This document shows, in pieces, positions 14,856-62,967 of a stretch of DNA of 64,000 nucleotides (the first letter of the stretch is position 1; each line of letters opens with the position of its first letter). Source of the DNA: Clostridia bacterium (GTDB lineage: Bacteria; Bacillota; Clostridia; Oscillospirales; Acutalibacteraceae); the NCBI GenBank assembly GCA_017416765.1, contig JAFQBE010000024.1, forward strand, positions 96,208 through 160,207. Reading direction: 5' to 3'. The notes under the pieces are model-generated. The model worked only from the letters and a program-made list of their open reading frames with translations. It ran no database searches and was not told the origin of the DNA. The position numbers and the translations under genes are program-made.

Positions 14856-15794
14856 TTAATATTTAGCTTCCTCGTCAGAGTAAACCAATTCACCGTTCAG
14901 GTCAAAAATCTGTTTTACATAATTTGAATCCGGCAAGGCTATGGGATTATCGTGGACGGTTTTAAGTTCTTCCCAGTATAATACCGGGGCTTTATATGTG
15001 TAACCCAGACTATCAACGGTAACTACATAAACACAAATATTATCACCTTTCGATACATAATATGTCTTATCTATAGTAGAAGAATAAGAACCTTGATTAT
15101 ATGTATGTGAAGCCTTGACATCGTTTGTTATATCCTCACGCGAAATTTCATTGCCGTTTTTCTCGGTAACAAGATAAAACTTATCCATATAAGCGTAATC
15201 TGTCTTGTAAAAATCAATACTATAGGCTGTACCGATATGTGCTTTTCCATTATTAACTCTTGTACCGTCAACAGAATACGAACCCCAAAGTGTAGGAAGA
15301 ATTTCATCCCAAAGATTCATCAAATCATTACCTTCAAGGTATTCTGTCTGAACTGTACCGTCTGTTTCAATGCTGACCGAAGGATAACAGTTTTCTTTTA
15401 TAAACGCATCTACAGATACTGCTCCGCTGAACAAATTTCCATTTTTAGTGAGTTCAGTTTTCTCATTATCAGTAGTAACAAAAATACGCATACCATTTGT
15501 AATGACTTTAGGTATAATATTGAAGCTTACTTTAGCGGTATTTGTTTCAGCATCAAGCCCTCCGATTTTCATTTCAGCACTTGTGAGAATGCTTGCCTGT
15601 TTTTTTAATTGCTCATCAACATTTGAATAAATATCATTAATTTCATAATTCATGTTTGAAATTTGGCTTTGAAGATTGGACTGGTTTGCGGCAATGCGCG
15701 ATTCAAGTTCATCTGTTTTTTCGAACAAATGAAACACACATACGACTAAAGCGGCTGACACAAGCCAAGGCAAAAGCTTTTTAAATTTCTCCAT
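14856..15794 (-). CDS. Membrane-anchored coiled-coil protein of unknown function
   Basis: A 312-residue protein that I do not recognise. The start at 15794 follows GGGAGGA; an earlier in-frame start would lie in the leader terminator. One N-terminal membrane helix (about residues 6-25) is followed by a coiled coil (about residues 26-75, heptads in FEKTDELESRIAANQSNLQ and QISNMNYEINDIYSNVDEQL), then an extracytoplasmic beta-rich part without Cys clusters or catalytic motifs. The expression unit is unusual: a structured RNA with competing hairpins (15816-15963) precedes it, so it is probably controlled by attenuation. It is the last gene before the convergent mntP. Confidence 0.75.
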   Translation of the reverse strand: MEKFKKLLPWLVSAALVVCVFHLFEKTDELESRIAANQSNLQSQISNMNYEINDIYSNVDEQLKKQASILTSAEMKIGGLDAETNTAKVSFNIIPKVITNGMRIFVTTDNEKTELTKNGNLFSGAVSVDAFIKENCYPSVSIETDGTVQTEYLEGNDLMNLWDEILPTLWGSYSVDGTRVNNGKAHIGTAYSIDFYKTDYAYMDKFYLVTEKNGNEISREDITNDVKASHTYNQGSYSSTIDKTYYVSKGDNICVYVVTVDSLGYTYKAPVLYWEELKTVHDNPIALPDSNYVKQIFDLNGELVYSDEEAKY

Positions 15795-15815
15795 TATTAA
15801 ATTCCTCCCGAATAA

Positions 15816-15963
15816 TAAAAAATGCGCAGTCAAAGCTGCGCACGAAAAACGCAGCCTCGATTTCTGTTACCACACAGTTCATTCCTCAGACAGGATATGA
15901 CAATCAAAGCATACATTTTTACCAAAAGTATGCCTGTCTGATCGAATTTTAAACTGTGTGGTA
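15816..15963 (-). ncRNA. Structured leader RNA (candidate riboswitch or attenuator)
   Basis: In transcript order: a 13-base-pair outer stem (15964-15952 with 15879-15867), an 8-base-pair stem (15940-15933 with 15894-15887), and an inner hairpin GCATAC/GTATGC (15933-15928 with 15914-15909). TCGAT at 15945-15941 can pair with ATCGA at 15861-15857, a possible pseudoknot. Next come two mutually exclusive hairpins sharing 15840-15836: an antiterminator (15855-15850 with 15840-15835) and a terminator (15842-15836 with 15829-15823) followed by six T. It begins at the predicted start site and ends 22 bases before the start codon. It matches no class I can name. Confidence 0.6.
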
Positions 15964-15968
15964 ATTTT

Positions 15969-15977
15969 ATTTTATCA
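15969..15977 (-). promoter_or_regulatory. Extended -10 promoter of the structured RNA
   Basis: Minus-strand TGATAAAAT (15977-15969) is a TGn-extended -10 box. The -35 region is only T-rich. The start site, 6-8 bases downstream, is at the foot of the outer RNA stem. Confidence 0.6.
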
Positions 15978-16009
15978 CATATCAGTAAGAAAATAAAGTA
16001 TTTTTAAAT

Positions 16010-61650: not shown

Positions 61651-62310
61651 TTATGAAGCAATTTCAGATTTTGTATAAGCTTCCCTGTCAGAAGCCGTAA
61701 CAAGATATGTAAACTTTTCTGTTTTTCCTTCTGAATTAGGAATGTTGAAGGTTATTTTAACATCAGCAGTTAAATCCTTAATCTCGGTTTCAATATCTAT
61801 ATAGGCACGACGAGTTTCTTTTTCGCCGGTCAGAAGCAATAAATTATTACCGGGGTCAGAATACCATGCACCGGCTTTTTTGGTTTTAAGACTTCCATCA
61901 ATATCAATATATTGTTCTTGCTCATACTGATAGTAAGCACCTTCATCCATAGCCCTGTACTTCTTATTATCATATTCTACCGAAGCGAAGGAACCGTCAT
62001 GGAATTCGCTATCTGCTCTATTTAAATTTGTAACCGTATAAGAAAAAGCAGCATAAGTATGTCCTACAGGAGCAACAAAGGGATTATCATCATCTTCATT
62101 GGGAATATATTCTTTCGGTGTAAAATAATTTTCATCATATATGCTATTAAGTGCAATTGTAAATTCAGCTGCGTTTAATTTAAATTCAAAAATATCAGTT
62201 GAAACAGTATCTCCTAATTTGTAATAGGTTGTATTTCCGCTCGATTTATCGCAAGCTGCAAAAGAGGAACATAAAACAACTATTAAAGCTAATGCAATGA
62301 TTTTTTTCAA
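61651..62310 (-). CDS. Lipoprotein with immunoglobulin-like domain (DUF4352-like)
   Basis: A 219-residue exported lipoprotein: lipobox SSFAAC near residue 19, then Ser/Gly linker. TTG at 62310 is preferred because AAAGGATGAT lies 4-10 bases upstream; an ATG at 62319 would sit inside that site. The body has alternating strands (VGHTYAAFSYTVTNLNRADSEFHDG, RRAYIDIETEIKDL, VKITFNIPNSEGKTEKFTYLV) like the telokin-type DUF4352 domains that bind wall or partner proteins. It is flanked by copies of an 18-base repeat. Function unknown. Confidence 0.7.
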   Translation of the reverse strand: MKKIIALALIVVLCSSFAACDKSSGNTTYYKLGDTVSTDIFEFKLNAAEFTIALNSIYDENYFTPKEYIPNEDDDNPFVAPVGHTYAAFSYTVTNLNRADSEFHDGSFASVEYDNKKYRAMDEGAYYQYEQEQYIDIDGSLKTKKAGAWYSDPGNNLLLLTGEKETRRAYIDIETEIKDLTADVKITFNIPNSEGKTEKFTYLVTASDREAYTKSEIAS

Positions 62311-62366: not shown

Positions 62367-62570
62367 TCACTTTTCTATCTCCGCAAAATAAAAAAGTGCG
62401 CCAACCGAAGTCAACGCACCGAAAACGCAAACTCCGATTGTCGCTACACAAAACCAGATAAAGGGAATGACAAAGATTCGCATATCATCTGTGGAATTTG
62501 CGGTTTTGCAAATTTCAAAATGACACACGAAAAATATAGTATCCCTAAAAAAAGAAAATACCATTCCCAT
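62367..62570 (-). CDS. Possible small membrane protein
   Basis: A 67-codon frame whose C-terminal half (MRIFVIPFIWFCVATIGVCVFGAL) is a clear hydrophobic segment with a charged end. Neither ATG (62570, 62564, 62483) has a convincing ribosome site, and a second frame of the same stretch is also hydrophobic, so this may be a decayed gene. It lies between the lipoprotein gene and the hairpin array. Confidence 0.3.
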   Translation of the reverse strand: MGMVFSFFRDTIFFVCHFEICKTANSTDDMRIFVIPFIWFCVATIGVCVFGALTSVGALFYFAEIEK

Positions 62571-62967
62571 TACTTTTATTCGGTTTTGTGTAGCATAATT
62601 AGTATATCACAATTATTTGAGTTTTTGCAATAGTTAAAAAAATAATCCCACCTGACATGCTTACAGTTTATAACTGAAAGCGTCATAATGGGTTATATAC
62701 TTTGATATAAAGGTATAAAAAATTGAGTATTCACATGTAAATCCTTTATGAATACTCAATTTGGAGGGAATGACAATAACGGATTTGATAAAATGCTTTT
62801 AATGAAGTACCGACTTTGTCGGTATGAAGAAAAAGCCTTACGGCTTCTATGAATCACTCGCTGTGTTCGTATGAAGAGAAGTGTACTTATCATTCTGTGA
62901 ACCGAAGGCTCGCTTCATAGGACAAAGCCCTGCTTCATTTTTCGTGTATCGCAGATACGCTTCATTG

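Follow-up and report, generated by a model that had tools for sequence, protein, structure and literature searches.

Attenuators of the PyrR type consist of an anti-antiterminator, an antiterminator, and a terminator, and in Bacillus it is the RNA-binding protein PyrR that controls the attenuator. The riboswitch classes for c-di-GMP and glycine have many targets and occur in tandem. As far as article texts go, the published idea that comes closest to the RNA presented here is the SLH motif (Stav et al. 2019, PMC6429828). The text of that article presents it as an orphan riboswitch candidate before S-layer genes, with 80 examples in Synergistaceae, Clostridia, and Negativicutes, about 60% of them at SLH genes, and floats c-di-GMP as its ligand. 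The automated gut-microbiome RNA candidates of Fremin and Bhatt 2021 (PMC8040213) might include the present family, which is not recognisable in the main text of that article. No description of the family was found in the main text of PMC8040213, PMC6429828, PMC2965389, and PMC2864571; word searches of PMC8632094 and PMC11109978 gave no occurrence, and literature searches gave no description in article text.

The window (the whole stretch of 64,000 nucleotides of DNA that was analysed) contains a leader at 15964-15814 on the reverse strand, which comprises its own promoter, a long hairpin, and a predicted pair of antiterminator and terminator (Table 1). It resembles PyrR-type attenuators, in layout only, in that mutually exclusive pairings would decide termination, and differs from them in its lack of an Rfam match, its long-range anti-antiterminator, and its unrelated target genes. 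As with the c-di-GMP and glycine riboswitches, there are many target genes per genome and some tandem copies; unlike in these classes, there is no Rfam aptamer, and each tandem copy has a promoter of its own (seven loci). With the SLH motif, as described in its article's text, it shares a candidate role ahead of genes for surface-layer and unknown proteins, and the presence in Clostridia. The descriptions of the two differ: the SLH motif is reported across several groups, whereas the present RNA was found in none of the other 298 genomes drawn across the phylum, a few members of the same class included, and SLH domains mark not most of its targets but 2 of the 99 proteins encoded downstream (a large part of these incomplete, with the best 25 of 71 families counted).

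The leader in the window

No Rfam 15 family matches the window at the gathering cut-off, and none matches over the leaders of 39 further loci (19 + 20), where the matches obtained, two 5S rRNAs and three tRNAs, lie outside the leaders. The best sub-threshold match of the window leader is SNORA53, with 20.8 bits against a cut-off of 38, and in E-value mode the window copy and two others (L025 and L063) gave unrelated weak matches only, far below cut-off. An earlier, sequence-only reading of this DNA had placed the leader in no known class, and the Rfam comparison agrees; the family is apparently not yet catalogued.

Most of the anatomy proposed in that reading stands. The extended -10 promoter was located upstream of the leader. 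Among the stems described as having 13, 8, and 6 bp, the outer one (P1) indeed has 13 bp and is 100% paired, and the inner hairpin holds a 6-bp GCATAC/GTATGC stem, but the middle, or upper, stem has 9 bp instead of 8. The complementarity described as a possible 5-base pseudoknot is present but is part of a longer one, between strands B and C. At the 3′ end, the two halves of the antiterminator lie at 15850-15860 and 15830-15840, and the terminator, located by eye from the strands, pairs TGCGCAG (15836-15842) with CTGCGCA (15823-15829); bases 15836-15840 had been assigned to both of these mutually exclusive hairpins, which is correct to within one base.

The stretch 15810-15964 has a minimum free energy of -61.5 kcal/mol (z = -7.7), equalled in 0 of 200 dinucleotide shuffles, and the fold stability of 15800-15990 has a z of -7.6. 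The antiterminator, not the terminator, appears in the minimum-energy fold of the window leader. The conserved U run of this copy lies mostly in the antiterminator loop, and C:D hardly needs it; its conservation would be explained by pairing with B.

Table 1. Positions of the leader elements, the second leader copy, and the genes that follow them in the window
Feature	Positions	Strand	Remarks
-35 position of leader promoter	15992..15997	-	TTTATT, weak; from composition by position in 96 copies
Extended -10	15969..15979	-	TGTGATAAAAT; 4 nt upstream of the RNA domain
P1, 5′ strand	15952..15964	-	transcript predicted to start among its first bases
Upper stem, 5′ strand	15933..15941	-	family name P1b/A5
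Strand A	15922..15933	-	5′ side of inner hairpin
Strand B	15905..15920	-	AAAAATGTATGCTTTG; 3′ side of inner hairpin, complementary also to C
Upper stem, 3′ strand	15886..15894	-	family name F/P1b′
P1, 3′ strand	15867..15879	-	
Strand C	15845..15859	-	CGAGGCTGCGTTTTT; 5′ arm of antiterminator, can pair with B instead
Strand D	15831..15842	-	3′ arm of antiterminator, 5′ arm of terminator
Strand E	15817..15829	-	terminator 3′ strand and U tail
RBS	15801-15809	-	
Gene for 312-aa protein	14859..15794	-	hydrophobic N-terminus; start codon ATG at 15794, 19 nt past leader end; no known family by Pfam and NCBIfam scans
Second, longer leader copy	62388..62596	-	R1 68 bits, E 7.6e-11
Lipoprotein-like gene	61654..62310	-	77 nt past second copy; TTG start by start-codon rule

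A family of leaders, probably in Clostridia

When the window's own genome was searched at the nucleotide level, four further matches turned up, and at least one match was obtained in 10 of the 11 genomes of the genus, own genome included. Alignments of 20 and 17 copies led to a hand-set structure and to a covariance model, R1 (17 copies, seeds from the source genus; 161 positions, 33 pairs). R1 has 12 matches in the source genome, two of them inside the window. Among 117 relatives it reaches up to 13 matches per genome, and at least 42 genomes are positive (E ≤ 0.01; own genome counted), of which 10 belong to the seed genus and 32 do not. Among 391 genomes drawn from the class, at least 95 are positive (E ≤ 1e-4; own genome counted). 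These genome counts are lower bounds because few candidates were scored per genome (7 to 24) under strict filters. In a phylum-wide draw of 299 genomes, which included a few members of the same class, the own genome alone is positive. The family is real, large, and widespread, with the window leader as an ordinary member, and it was found in one class of bacteria, probably Clostridia to judge from gene content.

The aligned matches number 143 (96 and 47 in two sets). Promoter composition was tabulated in all 96 copies of the first set, including an antisense match (L080 +) and a broken copy (L111). Gene spacing was counted in 139 copies, leaving out the antisense match and three copies cut by contig ends. 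For the pairing tests, the antisense match and a truncated copy (L090 778-922) were dropped, and 4 of the remaining 141 fail the anchor rules, which leaves 137.

The promoter is part of the conserved unit. Counting from the first base of the hairpin, T, T, and G occupy -33 to -31 in 94, 82, and 73% of the copies, T and G occupy -13 and -12 in 87 and 91%, and there is a T at -10 in 88%, an A at -9 in 94%, and a T at -5 in 92%. With the promoter thus fixed, the predicted transcript start falls among the first bases of P1. Measured from base to bulge, the median stem length is 32 bp (quartiles 29-35, range 6-48; 136 copies). After the 5′ side of the stem come B, usually GGUAAAAAUGCAUGCUC, then a bulge rich in U, the 3′ side, and a short linker, and finally C (usually GAGCUAUGCGUUUUU), D, and E with its U tail; B starts on average about 58 nt ahead of the start of C.

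Genes were assigned by a rule in which the start codon needs a Shine-Dalgarno-like motif and which can pick the wrong ORF (the one given to L135 2881-3043 clearly crosses the next copy). By this rule, a gene follows within about 300 nt in 121 of the 139 copies and none does in 18. The start codon is 10-40 nt past the match end in 84 copies, and in 63 of these it is at 10-20 nt. Such regularity makes it very improbable, in our view, that the unit is a mobile terminator-bearing repeat (BIME/MITE-like) spread in intergenic DNA and devoid of regulatory role. The numerous copies per genome, the tandem copies at seven loci, and the copy L179, which lies downstream of an integrase-like gene, do recall such elements, but the position is not independent of genes, pairings are preserved between dissimilar copies (see below), and the other matches in the own genome are related to the window copy by 77% over 141 bases or by short stretches only. 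A simple repeat is disfavoured because the promoter and the gene spacing are kept across copies.

Two strong promoter-leader-terminator units stand in tandem at L067, L076, L135, L145, L163, L164, and L165, each with its own promoter. Six of these loci precede an ORF by the start-codon rule, and L164 has no gene by the same rule. No convincing co-directional gene follows L002 237-381, a copy near a contig end in the source genome. A longer subtype, of about 195-226 nt, has a second inner hairpin, and its B and C letters differ yet still match; it comprises L063, L064, L101, L104, L108-L110, L112, L115, and the second copy in the window. In most of its members B ends with AAATTCC and pairs with GGAGTTTGCG. 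Another dispersed repeat, which is palindromic (GGGCAATTCACGAATTGCCC and GGGCGATTCATGAATCGCCC forms), is found near several leader copies of the source genome (L002 about 175-200, L003 about 1760-1850, and L004 about 1400-1490).

Carriage by viruses was considered and rejected on pattern and record searches: two exact leader patterns had 0 matches each in viral contigs, and one leader element used as query retrieved 0 plasmid records and 2 records in a phage search, both of them unannotated, unverified faecal scaffolds. The L178 scaffold has, by eye, chromosome-like genes, including a Clp-type ATPase fragment. In L179 (MT837627.1), a faecal scaffold, the leader lies downstream of the integrase-like gene and before genes for a zinc-ribbon membrane protein and a lipoprotein-like protein; in both scaffolds, again by eye, it precedes a lipoprotein-like or membrane protein gene. 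The location of the L179 leader near an integrase-like gene indicates that the unit occurs on accessory DNA.

Alternative pairings and a candidate switch

Each pairing was tested by setting the mean duplex energy of the native strands against the values obtained when partners were re-dealt among the copies 500 or 1000 times. P1 scores z = -32.7 (137 of 141 copies). The five successive pairings of the chain all beat re-dealt partners: A5:F (-32.7), A:B (-14.8), B:C (-16.1), C:D (-14.9; these last three in 137 copies), and D:E (-29.0; 135 copies); A5:B3 has a z of -10.7. Pairs of strands that are not neighbours in the chain give no signal (A:C 0.3, A:D -0.7, B:D -1.3, B3:F 1.2, F:C 1.1). The strands in these controls come from copies that are just as closely related, so kinship among the sequences does not by itself account for the pairing signal. 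In the 60 mutually dissimilar copies among the 137, A:B, B:C, and C:D retain -8.7, -9.8, and -9.9, against -0.6 to 0.7 for six controls, and B:C deprived of its invariant AAAAA/UUUUU part still has -8.9. The rules of the test are fixed and mis-set a few anchors (L036, L152), which weakens the native mean. Across the aligned copies, covariation lends support to the alternative pairings.

The mean energies of the antiterminator and the terminator are near balance (-16.4 and -15.7 kcal/mol), as expected for a switch, and the antiterminator is the stronger in 90 of 137 copies, a comparison biased toward the antiterminator because its energy was taken as the most favourable among 12 cut lengths. 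For the window copy, the values are -18.7 for the antiterminator versus -12.7 kcal/mol for the terminator, and the default state of this leader would be on. In L025 the stretch from C to E folds as the terminator. The family combines a conserved, structured domain with an expression platform, as riboswitches do, and has a C:D antiterminator that excludes a D:E intrinsic terminator ahead of the gene, as attenuators have. The attenuator layout of no known class proposed in the sequence-only reading finds support in a leader free of Rfam matches, a large family with covarying stems, and tight spacing to the start codon. As a sensor RNA in the strict sense, which would bind a ligand, the leader is a candidate.

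We regard it as quite probable that the unit is a promoter-attenuator cassette, reused many times per genome, in which A:B with C:D means read-through and B:C with D:E means stop. Transcription would start at the base of the hairpin of about 30 bp, the promoter being placed by alignment and the start site predicted from it. In the default fold, A5:F and A:B would close the hairpin, the C:D antiterminator would form, and the polymerase would read into the gene. If B were freed, it would pair with C, acting as a long-range anti-antiterminator; D would then be released, the D:E intrinsic terminator would form just before the ribosome site, and the gene would be off. Judging from the sequences compared here, the leaders probably decide whether the downstream gene is transcribed. 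The B:C/C:D chain offers clear mutants.

What would free B may be a protein. In this special case of the same layout, which we view as a tentative possibility, an RNA-binding protein would grip the hairpin or the B:C helix and so set termination. The order B:C, C:D, D:E is that of anti-antiterminator, antiterminator, and terminator in PyrR-type attenuators, and an AATA stretch outside the main pairings (positions 11-24) is conserved in 101 of 137 copies, against 26% by shuffling. This sits less well with the patchy distribution of the RNA within one family of genomes and with the result for LoaP, the sole candidate examined: it exceeds the cut-off in 1 of the 117 relatives, G068, which is outside the 42 that bear the RNA, and LoaP-dependent antitermination is disfavoured.

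Within the cassette reading, the geometry of B:C deserves attention. With the long stem intact, the linkers allow B to reach C in cis in 68 of 136 copies under a contour rule of 6 Å per linker nucleotide and 2.8 Å per base pair, which makes it doubtful in this model that B:C forms while the stem is intact. Since B:C in cis is sterically tight, it may need partial unwinding of the stem or two transcripts of one locus. In the latter case, which we think unlikely, the B hairpin of a finished or terminated leader would pair in trans with C of a nascent transcript of the same locus and switch the gene off. The covariation signal is the same for a cis switch and for B:C in trans. Inside a single genome, B pairs better with the C of its own copy than with those of other copies (G000, 12 copies, z = -5.5; G003, 11 copies, z = -2.9). 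If pairing in trans were true, each gene would count its own leader, i.e., it would have a locus-specific, sequence-addressed self-control.

With a promoter and a terminator in nearly all copies, and 18 of 139 copies lacking a gene by rule, one could also see the unit as a stand-alone small RNA, read-through into genes being incidental. We hold this to be rather improbable, as the C:D antiterminator pairing is preserved by covariation and start codons mostly come directly after the leader.

Downstream genes

The gene behind the window leader had been described as of unknown family, and scans of its 312-aa product with Pfam and NCBIfam bear this out, with nothing over cut-off. Homologues occur in 5 of 79 genomes, own genome included. 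Aligning the leaders of these homologues, the check proposed with the sequence-only reading, leads nowhere: the leader is beside the gene in 0 of the 4 other homologous loci, where the single leader match with E ≤ 1 (14.8 bits, in L174) is away from the homologue gene. As these four loci lack it, the leader RNA is modular and not tied to the 312-aa protein.

Targets in the family at large are often surface proteins. Pfam was scanned with 99 of the 101 proteins that start within 130 nt, many of them partial, and the best 25 of 71 families include BspA-type LRR_5 (18 proteins), Listeria-Bacteroides repeats (8), dockerin (7), and CHAP (5), as well as Ig-like, SLH, M23, and lectin domains (2 to 4 each). 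Signal peptides or lipoboxes are seen by eye in many other targets. By a crude score, a hydrophobic N-terminus is found in 54 of the 84 direct targets versus 18 of 45 window ORFs; since so many window ORFs also have one, the enrichment in exported proteins is modest by this measure. The Pfam list is the stronger argument for surface targets because the export estimate is crude.

Surface-protein targets would also suit a c-di-GMP riboswitch of a new class, and a GGDEF match was indeed obtained in 18 of the 42 genomes that bear the RNA. The other 24, several of them 97-99% complete, show none (E ≤ 0.001), which disfavours this ligand, and GGDEF is also present in 47 of the 75 genomes without an RNA match; we consider such a riboswitch extremely improbable. 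Whatever its signal, a switch RNA borne by roughly one in four of the class genomes sampled (at least 95 of 391) could be a major regulator of the choice of surface and secreted proteins, and the many targets per genome make the search for its ligand or regulator tractable.

A minority of the targets look, by eye, non-exported; these include small SLOG-like proteins, AMP ligases, and an XRE-like protein. Two kinds recur: the small targets of L047, L071, L074, and L094, which we take to be SLOG-like, and AMP-binding enzymes, found in three of the 99 downstream proteins (L044, L085, and L107; best 25 of 71 families). Both may hint at the signal.
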